Of a stretch of DNA of 64,000 nucleotides, positions 1-35,958 are shown piece after piece. Made by a program: the position numbers and the translations under genes. The notes beneath the pieces were generated by a model that did no database searches, had not been told where the DNA came from, and saw only the letters and a program-made list of their open reading frames with translations. This DNA is from Winogradskyella marina (GTDB lineage Bacteria > Bacteroidota > Bacteroidia > Flavobacteriales > Flavobacteriaceae), in NCBI RefSeq assembly GCF_015645385.1, contig NZ_JADOET010000017.1:1-64000 (forward strand), written 5' to 3'. Within the stretch, counting starts at the first letter, position 1, and the number at the start of each line of letters is the position of its first letter.

Positions 1-96
1 TTTTTTTTTTTTAGATTTACAATGTTGAAAGCATTTTTATAGAGTAATGTAAGAAGTCGCTCTTAAGAATGTGGACGACAAAAATGTTAACATTAT

Positions 97-115
97 AGCT
101 TGTGCAAGCTTTTTT
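97..115 (+). terminator. short stem-loop with T-run, weak terminator
   Basis: A 5-bp stem (agctt/aagct) with a four-base loop is followed by six T. It may end a transcript entering from the left edge of the window. The stem is short, so this is a tentative call. Confidence 0.35.
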
Positions 116-157
116 ATATTTTATCCCTGAGAATTAAAACTAATAGCGCAAAAAAAA

Positions 158-251
158 GACTTCTAAACAAGTGACTTCTACTTCTCATTCCCTTAATGAG
201 AAAACAAATGACTTCTAATTATAAGACTTCTATTCCCTAAGTTTTAGGGAG
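158..251 (+). repeat. two tandem units of paired GACTTCTA motifs plus stem-loop
   Basis: GACTTCTA occurs at 158, 173, 210 and 225. Each pair is 15 nt apart and the two pairs are offset by exactly 52 nt. After each pair comes a hairpin: 182-189 with 195-202 (8 bp, perfect) and 235-240 with 244-249 (6 bp, extendable). The reverse complement of the motif (AGAAGTC) lies upstream at 52-58. The rest of 1-308 holds no gene that I can see. The position suggests a structured leader or protein-binding array ahead of the gene at 309; the function is unknown. Confidence 0.6.
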
Positions 252-308
252 ACAATAGTTATTAATCAACCTATCTTAAAAAATGTGATGGGTTTAAAAT
301 CTTAAATT

Positions 309-560
309 ATGAAGAAAAGAATATTTAGCCTAATGGCTGTGGTAATGTTTATTGGAAGTCCAATAAACGTAATGGCAGTAAGCAATAAGACTTCCGAATA
401 TTGTGAACCATGCAACATTGATTCTAATGAATCGAATGGTGAATGTTTTTGTGACGCAATAAGATTGTATCACGCATACATACGAACTTTCGACGATAGA
501 GAAATGGCAATTGAAGCTGGAGCAAGATATCTAGACGAATGTAATGCAGTGCAATTTTAA
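309..560 (+). CDS. small secreted Cys-containing protein, unknown function
   Basis: This 83-residue protein starts with a clear signal peptide (KKR followed by a hydrophobic stretch, cleavage likely after VMA at about residue 23). The mature part of about 60 residues has five cysteines, including CEPC near residue 33 and CFC near residue 47, and ends with YLDEC followed by a terminal F. I do not recognise the family. It is followed after 29 nt by a GLPGLI gene and then by another small exported protein with a similar tail (YLDC close to a terminal F). It may therefore be a periplasmic or secreted peptide working with the downstream outer-membrane proteins. The leader holds repeated GACTTCTA motifs. 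That it is a real gene is supported by the signal peptide and spacing, not by homology. Confidence 0.6.
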   Translation: MKKRIFSLMAVVMFIGSPINVMAVSNKTSEYCEPCNIDSNESNGECFCDAIRLYHAYIRTFDDREMAIEAGARYLDECNAVQF

Positions 561-589
561 ATGATTAAAACAACTGATTGTATACTAAT

Positions 590-1300
590 ATGAAATTAAT
601 CCACATAATAGTTTTCACCCTTTTTATAGGGAATTGTCATTCGCAAAATTCTATAAAATCAGGTAGATTGGTTTATAGTGTTACATTTAATTATACTGAA
701 ACCAAAAAAGAAACTTCTGCATCTAAATTTCTTGAAAAATCAGTAGAAGCATTAAGAGAGTTTAATTTTAACTTAGACTTTAATAATTCTAAATCTTTAT
801 ATTATTTAGATAAATCAATGATTTCAGATAAAGAAAGTGACACCTACTTTAAGGCCGCATTAAAAATAGCTGGAGATGTTGAAGTTTTTACTGATTTAAA
901 TATTCAACTCTCAAAAACAAGAAAAAACTTTTTAGGAGATGATTTTATCATAACAGATTCATTAACCTATGACTGGAAAATAACCAAAGAAACTAAATTA
1001 ATTGGGGAATATTTATGTTATAAAGCAGAATTAGAAATTGAAACTACATACCTTAATCCAAAAGGTAAAAAAGTTTTTGCTTGGTTTACATATCTAATAC
1101 CTCTTTCTCATGGACCTAAAGGTTATTCAGGATTGCCAGGTATTATTTTAGAATTAAAAGAGAATAATTTAATCTATTCGTTGCAAAAACTAGAGTTCGA
1201 TAAATCAGAAATTAAAATACCAAAAAATGGAATCAAAATTAACAGGAGTGATTATAACAAATATGTTAAACAAAAAATTAAAGAATTTAAATTTGAGTAA
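590..1300 (+). CDS. GLPGLI family protein
   Basis: This is a 236-residue exported protein. The signal peptide runs from the ATG at 590 to about CHSQ at residue 19; an in-frame TTG at 578 is a less likely start. The middle contains the hallmark of the family, read here as YSGLPGIILEL, preceded by WFTYLIPLSHGP. GLPGLI proteins are restricted to Bacteroidetes and are often encoded next to outer-membrane beta-barrel receptors, as here (receptor from about 1522). Their biochemical role is not established. The gene sits between two small secreted proteins and probably shares their transcript, because the spacers are 29 nt upstream and 1 nt downstream. Confidence 0.85.
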   Translation: MKLIHIIVFTLFIGNCHSQNSIKSGRLVYSVTFNYTETKKETSASKFLEKSVEALREFNFNLDFNNSKSLYYLDKSMISDKESDTYFKAALKIAGDVEVFTDLNIQLSKTRKNFLGDDFIITDSLTYDWKITKETKLIGEYLCYKAELEIETTYLNPKGKKVFAWFTYLIPLSHGPKGYSGLPGIILELKENNLIYSLQKLEFDKSEIKIPKNGIKINRSDYNKYVKQKIKEFKFE

Positions 1301-1301
1301 T

Positions 1302-1514
1302 ATGAAAACCTTAAAAAAAACACTAATTGTCTTATCTGCATTTTTCTTATTTACAAGCATGCAATACTCTGAACCTAAGAAACCTGAAAGCTTAAAAAAA
1401 GCTTGTTCTTTACTAGCTCTAACTATTTATGACAACGCAATAAATAGTGAGGTAGATATAGAAACCGCCTTTGCTGTTTCGCAAATAGCATACCTTGATT
1501 GTATGTATTTTTAA
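1302..1514 (+). CDS. small secreted protein, unknown function
   Basis: This 70-residue protein has a Lys-rich start (MKTLKKT), a hydrophobic segment (LIVLSAFFLFTSM) and a mature region of about 45 residues with two cysteines. The ATG at 1302 directly follows the GLPGLI stop codon, so the two are translationally linked; an upstream in-frame ATG at 1227 would overlap the GLPGLI gene and is unlikely. The C-terminus (IETAF...YLDC near a final F) loosely resembles that of the 83-residue protein at 309. No family is recognised. It may be a periplasmic or surface peptide belonging to the adjacent receptor system. Confidence 0.6.
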   Translation: MKTLKKTLIVLSAFFLFTSMQYSEPKKPESLKKACSLLALTIYDNAINSEVDIETAFAVSQIAYLDCMYF

Positions 1515-1521
1515 TATTAAA

Positions 1522-4236
1522 TTGATTATTAGTAACAGTAAATTTTCATCTATTAAAAAAAACTCTCTTATATCAATATTATTAATAGGGAGTTTTTTTT
1601 TCTGTAGCTACTCTCAACAAGTTACGTTTATCGGCAATGTTAAAGACACTCTGCATAATCCTTTACCATACGCAAATATCTTAGCAATACCTCAAGCAGA
1701 TGACCAAGACGTGAAATTCGCCATTACGGAAAACGATGGGACATACAAACTAGGCCTTGCAAAAAACCAAACCTACGAACTCACGGTAAGCTATTTGGGT
1801 TACAAGCCACAAAAAGTTACTATAACCACAACAGACCAAGACCTCACTAAAAACTTTATCCTCAAAGAAAACCCAGACCAATTAGATGAGGTAAACATAA
1901 AATACACACCTCCAATTACCGTTAAAGAAGACACCATAACTTACGATGTTACAAAGTTTGTAACAGGTGAGGAACGCAAACTACGCGATGCTCTTAAAAA
2001 ATTACCTGGAGTAGAAGTGGATAGAGAAGGTAACGTGATGGTTAATGGTAAAAAAGTAACTAAAGTCTTAGTAGAAAACAAAACCTTTTTTACAGGTAAT
2101 AGCAAACTAGCTGTAAATAATATACCAGCAGATGCCGTTGAGAAAGTTGAAGTGTTAGATAATTACAATGAGGTTGCTATGCTTAAAGGTTTGCAAGACT
2201 CTGAGGATATGGCTATGAATATCTTGTTAAAAGAAGATAAAAAGAAGTTTGTTTTTGGCGATATAGAGGTGGGTGCAGGTATTAAAAAGCGTTACCTGTT
2301 ACATCCTAATTTATTTTACTACAGCCCAAGAACCAACGTTAACTTTATTGGTGACCTTAACAACCAAGGCATTAAAAGTTTTAGTTTTAGCGATTACTTA
2401 GAATTTGAAGGTGGTTTTGGAAAACTCTTGGATGATGTTGGTAGTTATTTTAGTTTGTTTAATAGCGATTTTGCCCAATACCTCAACAACCAAGATTTTA
2501 CAGCTAATATTAATCAGTTTGGTGCTTTAAATATTAGGCAATCCGTTTCTAAACATACAGATATTAGTGGCTATTTAATTAGCTCTAACTCAAAAACCCA
2601 AACTGCAAGCAATACGTTGAACGCTTACCAAAATATTGCAGACCCTTTTACGGAAAACAGAACGGTTACTAATACTATTAATAACTTTTTTACCGTAGGT
2701 AAAGTTACCGTGGACTACGACCCAAGCTACAAAGAAGATTTTGCTTATAATGCTTTTGTAAAAGTAACTAATAATGATAGTCATGGTTTTGTAAATACAA
2801 TTAACCCAGACCAAAACAATAGCATTACGACATTAACCGATGTTACGGCACTTAATCTAAAACAAAACATTACTTACAGTCGTAAATTATCTAAAGCGCA
2901 TACAGCTACTTTAGAAGCCACTTATAATTTTCAGAATGATAAACCGATTACAGAGTGGCTCACTAATCAGCAAATTTTACAAGGTTTAATTCCTTTGGAA
3001 GATGCTGATGTGTATAATATTCTTCAAACTAAAAAATCAGCTTCGCATAATTTTAATGCCATTATAAAAGATTATTGGGTAATTAATAATTTTAACCACC
3101 TTTATACTAGTGTTGGCATTAACACATCTTTTAATGATTTCTATAATGAAGATCTACAATTGCTTAATTATGGTCGTATCAATAATTTTAGTTCTGCTGG
3201 TTTTGGTAATGATTTTGGTTATAGCTATATAGATTCGTATTTGGGCTTGGAATATAAATTTCAAATTGGTATCGCTACGTTTAAACCTGCTGTATTTTAT
3301 CATGGTTATTTATGGCGGACACAACAGTTTGAGGATTCTGAAACGTTTTCTAAAAATTTGTTATTACCGCAATTCACCACCAAAGTGGAATTTAATAACA
3401 GTGAAAAACTGAATTTTAAATACAAACTGAATGCGCGTTTTCCTGGCATTAATCAATTGGCAAACAACTTTATACTTTCTAATTTTAATAGTGTTTACAA
3501 AGGCAACAATCAGTTAGAAAACCAATTATACCATTCCGCAACCTTGAGTTATTATAAGTTTAGTTTGTTTAAAAACTTAAACCTCAACTTCAATACCAGT
3601 TTTAACAAGCGTGTAAAAAGTATAAAAACGGTTTCAGAGCTTAATGGTATTGAATCTTTTAATACAGCCATAATGTTTGACCAACCAGAACATAATTGGA
3701 TGCTTAGTGGACGCGTTTCAAAAAAAATCAATAAAATCCGTTATAATCTGAGTAGTCGTTTTAGTTATAATGATTTCTATCAAATTTTGAATAATGAAAC
3801 AAATCTTAATGTTTCAAAATCTATTGCTTCAACGATTGGCGCGGAAACTTCATTTAAAAATCATCCTAACTTTGAAATTAATTATACCAAAGATTTTAAT
3901 AACTATAAAGCCTTAAATAACGTCTCTAAATTTGAAAATGACCAATTAGAAGTTATTTTGGAATACGATTTTTTAAAGGATTTTATCTTTAAAGCAGATT
4001 ACACCTATAATAATTACAATAATAAAAGTCTAGATACTAAAACCACTTTTGATACTGCAAATGCGTCGTTATTCTACCAAAAAGAAGATAGTCCTTGGGG
4101 ATTTGAGGTAAATGCCACTAACCTTTTTGATACGCGTTTTAAACAACAAAATTCCTTTAACGCTTTTGTGATTAGCGATAGTAGAACATTTATTTTGCCT
4201 AGAATTGTAATGTTTAAGGTAAGCTATAAGTTGTAA
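1522..4236 (+). CDS. outer-membrane beta-barrel / TonB-dependent receptor-like protein
   Basis: This is a large outer-membrane protein of about 904 residues. It has a signal peptide (hydrophobic LISILLIGSFFF then SYSQ) and a carboxypeptidase-regulatory-like beta-sandwich beginning VTFIGNVKDTLHNPLPYANI. Next comes a plug-like region (LRDALKKLPGVEVD, followed by VNNIPADAVEKVEVLDNYNE) and a long aromatic/Asn-rich beta-barrel ending in FKVSYKL. This architecture is typical of the OMP_b-brl_3 branch of TonB-dependent receptors; the substrate is unknown. No ATG is available: the candidates are TTG at 1522 (chosen) or TTG at 1495 inside the preceding gene. A terminator-like hairpin at 1555-1601 lies within the signal-peptide codons. 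Pairing with GLPGLI is a common Bacteroidetes arrangement. Confidence 0.85.
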   Translation: MIISNSKFSSIKKNSLISILLIGSFFFCSYSQQVTFIGNVKDTLHNPLPYANILAIPQADDQDVKFAITENDGTYKLGLAKNQTYELTVSYLGYKPQKVTITTTDQDLTKNFILKENPDQLDEVNIKYTPPITVKEDTITYDVTKFVTGEERKLRDALKKLPGVEVDREGNVMVNGKKVTKVLVENKTFFTGNSKLAVNNIPADAVEKVEVLDNYNEVAMLKGLQDSEDMAMNILLKEDKKKFVFGDIEVGAGIKKRYLLHPNLFYYSPRTNVNFIGDLNNQGIKSFSFSDYLEFEGGFGKLLDDVGSYFSLFNSDFAQYLNNQDFTANINQFGALNIRQSVSKHTDISGYLISSNSKTQTASNTLNAYQNIADPFTENRTVTNTINNFFTVGKVTVDYDPSYKEDFAYNAFVKVTNNDSHGFVNTINPDQNNSITTLTDVTALNLKQNITYSRKLSKAHTATLEATYNFQNDKPITEWLTNQQILQGLIPLEDADVYNILQTKKSASHNFNAIIKDYWVINNFNHLYTSVGINTSFNDFYNEDLQLLNYGRINNFSSAGFGNDFGYSYIDSYLGLEYKFQIGIATFKPAVFYHGYLWRTQQFEDSETFSKNLLLPQFTTKVEFNNSEKLNFKYKLNARFPGINQLANNFILSNFNSVYKGNNQLENQLYHSATLSYYKFSLFKNLNLNFNTSFNKRVKSIKTVSELNGIESFNTAIMFDQPEHNWMLSGRVSKKINKIRYNLSSRFSYNDFYQILNNETNLNVSKSIASTIGAETSFKNHPNFEINYTKDFNNYKALNNVSKFENDQLEVILEYDFLKDFIFKADYTYNNYNNKSLDTKTTFDTANASLFYQKEDSPWGFEVNATNLFDTRFKQQNSFNAFVISDSRTFILPRIVMFKVSYKL
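1555..1601 (+). terminator. intrinsic terminator embedded in the start of the receptor gene
   Basis: Eight A plus CTCTC (1555-1567) pair with GGGAG plus eight T (1588-1600), giving a 13-bp stem with one G-U pair, and the T-run extends to 1601. It lies 41 nt after the stop of the small gene at 1302-1514. It would end that transcript unless read through, although it is inside the signal-peptide codons of the receptor. Confidence 0.6.
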
Positions 4237-33100: not shown

Positions 33101-33496
33101 CTATTTTACCAAAATACCACGCAACTGCATCAATGGAACGGTCTGCAAAGCTTTTTCGTTTATTGTGTTTTTTCTAAACAAGTATGTTTTATCAAACATT
33201 TGGTTGCCTTCAAAAAACGTGATTTTAAACTCGTTATTGAGTTCTAATACTTTTTCCTGTAAGTATTCAATTTTTGCGTAACTTCTTGCTGGTAGTTTTG
33301 CAATAGTGTGTCGCATTACTGGTGTAAGTTTCTTGTCATTATAACCTCTAGAAACAATTAGAACGGTTTCTAAATCTTGGTCACTGTTGTTAATGATATA
33401 GGCGTTCCAGTCTAGAGTTTTGTATTCTATATGTTGTTCTTGCACTACAGCAACGTGTACGTCTTTTACTTCTGGTATATTAATGTCTTTCTTCAT
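33101..33496 (-). CDS. conserved flavobacterial protein of unknown function
   Basis: This 131-residue cytoplasmic protein has a predicted mixed beta structure (VHVAVVQEQHIEYKTLDWNAYIINNSDQDLETVLIVSRGY). It has neither a signal peptide nor membrane segments. I recall similar proteins near pheS in other Flavobacteriaceae but know of no function. Its start codon lies 6 nt from one arm of the inverted repeat that bounds the GIY-YIG remnant, so its leader sequence must derive from that element. Confidence 0.6.
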   Translation of the reverse strand: MKKDINIPEVKDVHVAVVQEQHIEYKTLDWNAYIINNSDQDLETVLIVSRGYNDKKLTPVMRHTIAKLPARSYAKIEYLQEKVLELNNEFKITFFEGNQMFDKTYLFRKNTINEKALQTVPLMQLRGILVK

Positions 33497-33502
33497 TTAA
33501 TA

Positions 33503-33532
33503 TTGTCATTTCGAGCTTGCCGAGAAATCTCA
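33503..33532. repeat. left 30-bp inverted repeat of GIY-YIG element
   Basis: The arm contains tcatttcgagcttgccgaga. It is a perfect 30-base reverse complement of 33848-33877. Together the arms bound 315 bp holding the broken nuclease gene. I recall this repeat type as common in flavobacterial intergenic DNA. Confidence 0.85.
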
Positions 33533-33576
33533 AATTTTATCATTAAGAAAATTCCAATTCGGATTTTGAAGGTTAA

Positions 33577-33832
33577 TTAAGAATTCTTTTTCGCTCTATT
33601 CCACTTTTTAAGTTGTTTTTCTCTATTAATTGCTGTTTCTACATCTGTGAAATGTTCATAATAGATAAGATATTTGCATTTATATTTATGAGAGAAAGAT
33701 TTGGAATGTGCTTCAGGATTATTGTGGTAGTATAGTCTATCAACTAAATTATTGGTAACGCTAAAGTACGGTTTTGTTTTTATTGGTTATTATATAGACG
33801 AAATAGTTATGATCAGCATTTATCTTTGACAT
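33577..33832 (-). pseudogene. frameshifted GIY-YIG endonuclease
   Basis: On the minus strand, ATG 33832 reads MSKINADHNYFVYIITNKNK then TVL and hits TAG. Shifting frame at that point gives VTNNLVDRLYYHNNPEAHSK, then KYLIYYEHFTDVETAINREKQ and LKKWNRAKKNS before the stop at 33577. This is the single-domain GIY-YIG family (about 85-100 residues). The expected second part of the signature (LYxGVTNNL) is broken where about 5 nt are missing near 33754. Catalytic Tyr residues remain, but no intact protein can be made. It lies between perfect inverted repeats and between pheS and a hypothetical gene. Confidence 0.88.
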
Positions 33833-33847
33833 ATTTTTTAAAATCTA

Positions 33848-33877
33848 TGAGATTTCTCGGCAAGCTCGAAATGACAA
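33848..33877. repeat. right 30-bp inverted repeat of GIY-YIG element
   Basis: This is an exact reverse complement of 33503-33532. It ends 5 nt before the pheS stop codon position (33883), so the element abuts the 3' end of pheS. Confidence 0.85.
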
Positions 33878-33882
33878 AACAA

Positions 33883-34902
33883 TTACAATGCACTCTTAAA
33901 CTGCTCTAAAAACCTCACATCATTCTCACTCAATAACCTAATATCACCAATCTGGTTTAATAACATTGCAATACGGTCTATTCCCATACCAAAAGCAAAA
34001 CCTGAATATTCTTTAGAATCGATTCCGCAATTCTCCAATACATTTGGATCTACCATTCCGCAACCCATTATTTCTAACCAACCTGTTCCTTTGGTTATTT
34101 TGTAATCGGTTTCGGTTTCTAATCCCCAATATACATCGACCTCAGCACTTGGTTCAGTAAACGGAAAGTATGAAGGGCGCAATCTAATCTTAGATTTCCC
34201 AAACATTTCGGTTGTAAAATATTGAAGTGTTTGTTTTAAATCGGCAAAACTCACATCTTTATCAATATACAAGCCTTCTACTTGGTGGAAAAAACAATGT
34301 GAACGAGCAGAAATCGCCTCATTTCTATATACGCGACCTGGTGAAATTGTACGAATTGGTGGTTGGTTATTCTCCATATAACGCACTTGTACAGAACTGG
34401 TATGCGTACGTAATAAAATATCTGGATCAGTTTGAATAAAGAACGTATCCTGCATATCTCTTGCCGGATGGTATTCTGGCAAATTCAACGCTGTAAAGTT
34501 ATGCCAATCATCCTCAATTTCTGGACCTTCGCTAACGTTAAAACCAATACGTGAAAAGATATCGATAATCTCATTTTTAACAATAGATATCGGATGACGC
34601 GCACCAATAGCAATCGGTTCGCCTGGACGCGATAAATCACCATAGATACCTTTTTCTTCTTCCTGATTTTCTAAAGCTTCTTTTAAATCATTTACTTTAG
34701 TTTCGGCTGTGTTTTTAAGCTCATTAATTATTTGTCCGAATTCTCTTTTCTGATCGTTCGCTACATTTTTTAATTCGCCATAAAACGCTTTTAAATGCCC
34801 TTTTGAACCTAAATATTTAATTCTAAAGGCTTCAACCTCTTCTTTTGATTGTGCTTTAAAAGCTTCTGCTTCTGCTATAAGTTCTTTTATCTTGTCTATC
34901 AT
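33883..34902 (-). CDS. pheS: phenylalanine--tRNA ligase alpha subunit
   Basis: PheS is the catalytic subunit of the alpha2-beta2 synthetase. A coiled-coil N-terminus (residues 1-90) is followed by class II motifs: PISIVKNEIIDIFSRIGF, the motif 2 region RTISPGRVYRNEAISARSHCFFHQVEGL, and motif 3 GFAFGMGIDRIAMLL near the end. At 339 residues it is standard. pheT is not adjacent, which is usual in Flavobacteriaceae. Its 3' end abuts the GIY-YIG element. Confidence 0.96.
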   Translation of the reverse strand: MIDKIKELIAEAEAFKAQSKEEVEAFRIKYLGSKGHLKAFYGELKNVANDQKREFGQIINELKNTAETKVNDLKEALENQEEEKGIYGDLSRPGEPIAIGARHPISIVKNEIIDIFSRIGFNVSEGPEIEDDWHNFTALNLPEYHPARDMQDTFFIQTDPDILLRTHTSSVQVRYMENNQPPIRTISPGRVYRNEAISARSHCFFHQVEGLYIDKDVSFADLKQTLQYFTTEMFGKSKIRLRPSYFPFTEPSAEVDVYWGLETETDYKITKGTGWLEIMGCGMVDPNVLENCGIDSKEYSGFAFGMGIDRIAMLLNQIGDIRLLSENDVRFLEQFKSAL

Positions 34903-35838: not shown

Positions 35839-35910
35839 GCTCACTTCCCATATTATCGGGAATCTCTTTAAATATTATACTTCTTTTAATTCGTTTAAAG
35901 TTTCAAATTC

Positions 35911-35958
35911 GAGTTCGAGTTCGAGTTCGAGTTCGAGTTCGAGTTCGAGTTCGAGTTC
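35911..35958. repeat. hexanucleotide tandem repeat (GAGTTC)8
   Basis: Eight perfect copies of GAGTTC lie in the divergent intergenic region between the gene starting at 35838 (minus) and cvpA (plus). The repeat is non-coding. It is 73 bp from the minus-strand start and about 73 bp upstream of the cvpA -7 element. Confidence 0.95.

Follow-up and report, generated by a model that had tools for sequence, protein, structure and literature searches.

On a 64,000-nucleotide stretch of Winogradskyella marina DNA (hereafter the window; contig NZ_JADOET010000017.1), a 375-bp unit with perfect inverted ends and a broken GIY-YIG nuclease gene lies tightly packed between pheS and another gene. This raises the question of whether the ends and the nuclease belong together, and what kind of unit would have kept its ends around a dead gene. 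We report that it is best read as a recently inactivated REP-associated GIY-YIG nuclease unit, a gene placed between inverted copies of its own recognition palindrome, and we put the probability of this at roughly 70%. The reading is based on the association of gene and arms, the concordance of nuclease and hairpin classes, the block-wise presence or absence of the unit, stem compensation (mainly in other hairpin classes), and the numbers of class B and class C hairpins.

Arms, gene and junction of the window unit

An inverted-repeat search returned two arms of 30 nt each, 100% complementary and 315 nt apart; by our own estimate from its base composition, the window would contain such a pair by accident with a probability of order 1e-9. 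Arm 1 (33503..33532, + strand) is a TGTC-tagged imperfect palindrome of a type referred to here as class A (TTGTCATTTCGAGCTTGCCGAGAAATCTCA) with its tag outward, and arm 2 (33848..33877, - strand) is the identical palindrome, inverted and again with the tag outward. The perfect 30-bp inverted repeats of a preliminary description, at 33503-33532 and 33848-33877, were thus confirmed. Between the arms the sole recognisable gene is a GIY-YIG gene on the - strand, now a pseudogene (33530..33832, the extent being that of the orthologous reading frame) with its ATG at about 33832 and an intact length of ~100 aa; the orthologous genes end in a stop codon that overlaps their equivalent of arm 1. The remnant scores 37.1 bits against the PF01541 profile, where two relatives reach 67.2 and 60.4 and the cut-off is 22.6.

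Two lesions, both on the - strand, separate this copy from four intact orthologues: 5 nt are missing at 33764/33765, which breaks the YIG half of the motif together with the frame, and 1 nt is missing at 33589/33590, near the 3' end. The window copy consequently lacks an open frame as well as one of the motif halves, and the four orthologues are intact in both respects. The preliminary description had reported a frameshift right after the first motif; the frame is indeed lost at the motif's second half, with the second lesion in addition. A single assembly error is an unlikely cause, given two separate lesions seen against four intact orthologues. Differences between the remnant and one of these orthologues (L139) number 9, 5 and 25 at codon positions 1, 2 and 3, suggesting that the gene died recently and that selection probably acted until recently. 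Among the intact class A genes the differences are mostly at third codon positions, an excess that indicates purifying selection.

The neighbours are pheS, encoding the phenylalanyl-tRNA synthetase alpha subunit (33883..34902, - strand; PF01409 1.1e-98, PF02912 4.6e-19), and a gene for a conserved 131-aa protein (33101..33496, - strand; no Pfam family matched) that served as junction marker in relatives. The gaps, 5 bp to the end of pheS (33883) and 6 bp to the start of the 131-aa gene (33496), agree with those first described, and the identity of pheS now has Pfam support. Inspection by eye found no matching direct repeat beside the arms at the pheS junction, i.e., no target duplication. Elsewhere in the window, at 35908-35958, a perfect hexamer array (TTCGAG x 8.5) lies near the start of a 120-aa ORF.

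The pheS junction in relatives

The comparison set comprised 68 Winogradskyella genomes, including the window genome. The 131-aa neighbour protein is present in 65 of them, and 30 of these 65 loci were read. In 15 of the 30, pheS adjoins the 131-aa gene; three of these junctions hold the unit (the window, G032 and G028) and 12 do not, the two genes almost touching in seven of the latter. None of the 12 unit-free junctions among the loci read retains an arm, so that empty sites with both arms, which the preliminary description had named as evidence against its reading, were absent (0/12). At one unit-free junction (L030 in G011) there is, by eye, what looks like the decayed remains of a hairpin from a different class.

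A domain search added two unit-bearing genomes, G033 and G054. Full copies with an intact gene, for which the preliminary description had proposed a search, are thereby found in four other species (G028, G032, G033 and G054), with the same arms and at the pheS junction; in G032 both arms share one identical single change. Outside the genus, G266 has a 78% identical protein at the pheS junction, flanked by degraded ends, and this protein is the sole one above 70% identity among the 18 of 397 family genomes that match at E <= 1e-38. Unit and gene were found solely at the pheS junction, in six genomes of two genera.

Between genomes the unit interior is 68-83% identical and pheS 81-87% (the G033 row of the comparison includes an extra upstream hairpin). 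The resemblance of the two divergences suggests that vertical descent with losses, and thus long residence, suffices; horizontal re-insertion at pheS is not needed when the unit has diverged about as much as pheS. G009 and G010 lack the unit though they are 95-96% identical to the window genome by the neighbour protein, for which the unit carriers show 82-87%. By pheS DNA, G009 and G010 are no nearer to the window genome than is G028.

The class A arm across genomes

The class A arm pattern occurs at 13 places in the 68 genomes, and a reversed-pattern control gave 0. Ten of the 13 are unit ends, two in each of five genomes, which disposes of the possibility, raised in the preliminary description, that the arm might occur elsewhere only without GIY-YIG genes. 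The own (W. marina) genome holds four copies, including an inverted doublet at C71:179087-179166 whose members are 30 nt apart with no gene between them, and G041 has one lone copy. A compensated stem change from T-A to C-G is seen in that lone copy and in one half of the doublet. Gene and hairpin occur together in 5/5 genomes and the hairpin in one of the other 63 (Fisher 5.8e-7), the gene being scored as present at >=80% identity or as the remnant. A class A-type hairpin in G041 (L182, C22:84182-84206) lies in frame within an ORF (1481..2065), in what by eye is a likely lipoprotein signal peptide.

When the own genome was searched with an intact class A protein, the remnant alone matched at E <= 1e-22. 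As the gene is broken and the search of the genome revealed no second one of that class, the window copy is probably a dead relic, inert now, whose ends have yet to decay. Among the genomes compared, class A showed neither a target duplication nor a second location with the gene, and hence gives no support for its mobility.

Small GIY-YIG genes and their flanking hairpins in the genus

PF01541 matches number 2-26 per genome when larger proteins are counted. The own genome has 12, and inverted ends, differing in sequence, occur on at least five of its eight small ones. For a wider survey 100 more loci were fetched, giving 144 small GIY-YIG ORFs after one of 145 was dropped for a short flank; matches in the genus were listed down to about E 2.6e-15, so that weak members are under-sampled. 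Inverted flank alignments scoring >=16 were obtained for 66/144 ORFs compared with 76/1714 mismatched pairs and 1/432 shuffles, and for 0/30 non-GIY ORFs; 31/144 score >=20. Direct-orientation alignments score >=16 in 59/144 and >=20 in 56/144, many of them being tandem copies, arrays or duplications. As direct matches are nearly as common as inverted ones at >=16, and palindromes match both ways, orientation alone is unspecific. For G266 and the more distant relatives of the class A protein, inverted flanks at >=16 were seen in just 4/27 loci.

On reading the sequences, most recognisable ends are built alike, with an outward-facing tag (TGTC, in some cases CGTC), a palindrome and ATC. By core motif, the identical hairpin class is present on both sides, inverted and within 170 bp, at 86/144 loci; 58/144 have no common hairpin class. 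Mapped onto the nuclease tree (quick maximum-likelihood, 85 proteins, 107 alignment columns, built without the 58 unclassed loci and the window remnant), the nine hairpin classes require 8 changes, which is the minimum, where shuffled labels average 55.6 and 0/200 shuffles are as low; the classes were defined after the ends had been viewed, and orthologues at one site count as separate rows. Nuclease lineage and hairpin class are thus concordant in the genus.

Some further arrangements were recorded. Neighbouring similar copies of GIY-YIG units share one locus in L081, L099, L104, L138, L153 and L171, and the single-contig genomes G014 and G028 have 26 and 19 GIY-YIG domain matches, respectively. 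Short GIY-YIG ORFs lie close to tRNA genes in L171 (1137-1857), L099, L150, L169, L174, L153 and L172; in L171 two ORFs alternate with three copies of tRNA-Pro, as if insertion of the unit had duplicated the tRNA.

Folding and stem compensation

Of 31 distinct class C hairpins in the sampled loci, 30 have complementary bases at the variable stem position, with three pair types, and all 24 class D hairpins are complementary at both outer positions, one of them with a G-T. As single-stranded DNA, class B folds at -7.7 kcal/mol (z -5.6) and class C also folds well (z -3.05); class E does not (z +0.53). The window arm reaches -0.9 kcal/mol (z +0.66 and +0.65 relative to shuffles), which gives no support for a stable single-strand fold. 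Since it folds weakly, the case for hairpin recognition comes from the other classes together with the one compensated change in two class A copies. On reading, G-A steps flank the loop on both sides in classes A, D, E and F, and these may form tandem G-A pairs.

Separately, a TGTC-tagged hairpin in the own genome (L005, C32:105771-105796) lies in frame within a reading frame (1..2277) of a purL-like gene, by eye purL/FGAM synthase, to which it adds a short peptide.

Hairpin numbers and insertion traces

Class B hairpins amount to 517 copies in 48/68 genomes and class C hairpins to 284 copies in 45/68, with 0 in the reversed control for each; single-genome maxima are 48 and 21 copies, respectively. 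Among the class B hairpins listed, a number are arranged as inverted doublets with a spacing of about 47 bp. Class B copies are commoner in the 16 genomes with the B1 nuclease (median 14 vs 2, p=2.6e-5) and class C copies in the 12 with the C1 nuclease (median 4 vs 1, p=0.007), in tests by genome that ignore phylogeny and in which each unit itself adds two copies. With identity cut-offs chosen for B1 and C1 once the hits were known, two of 14 genomes with C1 matches (60-64%) and two of 18 with B1 matches (71-72%) fell into the group scored as being without the class. Two of the 12 C1 genomes are without any class C copy. The crossed tests, class B numbers against the C nuclease and the reverse, show no excess (p=0.8 and 0.73). 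Class B and class C hairpin numbers thus follow the matching nuclease and not the other.

Other classes have also left traces at their sites. In L009 (own genome, C71:41561-41791), L060, L093 and L120 a unit lies within the opening codons of a lipoyl-domain gene, the start of which is repeated to either side of it; the duplications around units in two such gene types measure 47 and 30 bp, and a unit in the first codons of a fabF-like gene is accompanied by a 79-bp direct duplication (peptides read by eye throughout). By reading, L093, L120 and L111, together with L009 and L060, which have the same gene type as L093, look like target duplications. Direct repeats outside the units at a score of >=20 were found in 13/84 cases versus 5/666 mismatched pairs, mostly in class F and class C arrays.

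Homologues beyond the genus

Scanning named genomes with a profile supplied the best 80 of 506 relatives, to which one Neisseria gonorrhoeae locus was added; 77 of these 81 loci had usable flanks, four being excluded for a short flank. Inverted flanks at >=16 occur in 53/77 named loci and in 241/916 mismatched pairs, many of which share class B. With a stricter definition, a [CT]GTC tag immediately before a stem of >=8 bp, on both sides and outward, 48/77 named loci are positive, the opposite orientation gives 7/77, and five control tags sought on both sides give 0/77. Stems tagged with GTAG on both sides were found in 0/77 named and 0/144 genus loci. The strict [CT]GTC pattern is present on both sides in 15/144 genus loci, few because several classes have, on reading, two G-A mismatches within the stem. 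The 48 tagged loci span 13 named phyla and unassigned records, with the reservation that many of the named records are metagenome-assembled and their phylum labels may be contaminated. A phage origin was rejected, as the phage collection contained no relative of a class B protein at E 1e-5.

The N. gonorrhoeae homologue is 40% identical to the class A protein over 84 aa and 53% identical to a class B protein, and dRS3-type CGTC hairpins lie on both sides of its gene, presumably ssn. In a 2025 report, Ssn GIY-YIG nucleases reportedly cleave a repeated neisserial site in single-stranded DNA and affect transformation. Both systems pair a small GIY-YIG protein of one domain with a repeated target next to its gene; here, by contrast, inverted palindromes enclose the gene, several such pairs exist, each specific to its class, and the window copy has been inactivated. 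Judged from sequence, the window nuclease family is probably related to the Ssn single-strand nucleases and may plausibly belong with them. The nearest solved structures by sequence are those of UPF0213 GIY-YIG proteins (1zg2, 1ywl).

Comparison with known repeats

CGTC-REPs include the neisserial dRS3 (CGTC-1), have also been reported in Bacteroidetes, and 'apparently lack a dedicated transposase', according to the survey of Di Nocera et al. (2013, PMC3733652). Plasmid records with class B relatives include Sinorhizobium meliloti, Azospirillum lipoferum, Novosphingobium aromaticivorans, Sphingobium and Neisseria, groups that the survey also names for CGTC repeats (Sphingobium from its abbreviation; PMC3733652). 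Rhizobium and Shinella are likewise among these plasmid records and are absent from its passages on CGTC repeats (PMC3733652).

The window arms share with CGTC-REPs a TGTC tag, outermost in each arm, and AT as the first two stem pairs (ATTTC/GAAAT); palindromes and inverted pairs occur in both, and the class B hairpins resemble the neisserial ones. They differ in that the window stem has five Watson-Crick pairs, becoming longer only with tandem G-A pairs, compared with 8-9 bp and a loop of 4-5, in that the arm tail is CTCA and not CCA-like, and in that class A has few copies (4 in the own genome, 13 in 68 genomes). Moreover, no dedicated enzyme had been found for CGTC-REPs, and the term GIY-YIG is absent from PMC3733652. 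On stem length, tail and copy number the window arms are therefore not filed as strict CGTC-REPs, though they work like them. The system also recalls REP/RAYT pairs and REPINs, with small palindromes, inverted doublets and an enzyme gene between them (described in part in PMC3733652); the enzyme is here of the GIY-YIG type instead of an IS200/IS605-type tyrosine transposase, and the tag is TGTC instead of GTAG. In the open-licence literature we found no paper linking GIY-YIG with extragenic palindromes or CGTC repeats.

Alternative explanations

The strongest competitor, which we nevertheless regard as unlikely, is a host system, e.g. a barrier to single-stranded DNA or a signal in natural transformation, of which the unit structure would be a by-product. 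The neisserial Ssn nucleases, reported to act on a repeated sequence and to modulate transformation, fit this, as does the purifying selection on intact class A genes, but patchy presence, inactivation in the window species, the 2-26 PF01541 matches per genome and hairpins in frame look more mobile. A little less probable still is a gene resembling that of a homing endonuclease, which would target one conserved site, the pheS junction, and copy itself into empty alleles, the arms being mere borders. In its favour are the confinement of the class A gene to that junction in six genomes of two genera and, by the neighbour protein, the absence of the unit from G009 and G010 when genomes at 82-87% carry it; units of other classes that lie in the opening codons of lipoyl-domain and fabF-like genes, accompanied by direct duplications of 30-79 bp, also point that way. 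Against this, the unit has diverged like pheS, and since pheS DNA does not bring G009 and G010 closer, descent with loss is enough; single-site homing also leaves the dispersal of class B and class C hairpins, in up to 48 and 21 copies, unexplained.

Two simpler ideas we consider very improbable. That the arms are ordinary bidirectional terminators, independent of the nuclease, is suggested by genes a few bases off on either side of the unit, but class A arms are almost confined to the unit, fold poorly and have no T run after either of them, related hairpins occur within reading frames, and the classes follow the nuclease tree. A conventional TIR transposon that has lost its transposase would account for perfect inverted ends and for block-wise absence; the ends, however, are palindromes of a class tied to the GIY-YIG gene, none of the four intact units has room for a transposase beside that gene, and the locus shows no target duplication.

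Set against these alternatives, a recently inactivated REP-associated nuclease unit remains the reading that we prefer. Of the preliminary description, the link between GIY-YIG genes and inverted repeats has proved real and wider than had been claimed, extending through the genus and to named organisms. Its two suggestions for the window copy itself found no support: for movement in trans, the genome search gave only the remnant at E <= 1e-22, and unit and gene were found only at pheS; for retention for the sake of the hairpin, the arm folds no better than shuffled sequence.

Proposed mechanism and implications

In the mechanism that we consider most likely, the intact enzyme would recognise its own palindrome when this is single-stranded, on the lagging strand, in transforming DNA or as a cruciform, and would cut it at or near the GTC tag. 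Repair of such cuts could keep both unit ends matched, and may also copy hairpins, hairpin pairs and sometimes whole units to new sites. More tentatively, at a little under even odds, GIY-YIG nucleases could be the missing dedicated enzymes of CGTC-REPs in many phyla, each lineage having co-evolved with its own hairpin, which would spread singly, as doublets and as units with target duplications of 30-79 bp.

If true, this would amount to a transposition-like process driven by a GIY-YIG nuclease. Which enzyme moves or maintains CGTC-tagged REPs was left open in the 2013 survey, and the present survey points to one protein family. Nine candidate enzyme-hairpin pairings within a single genus make specificity testable by partner swaps. 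Finally, the window copy, in which the arms have naturally outlived a functional nuclease, can help to gauge how fast such ends decay.
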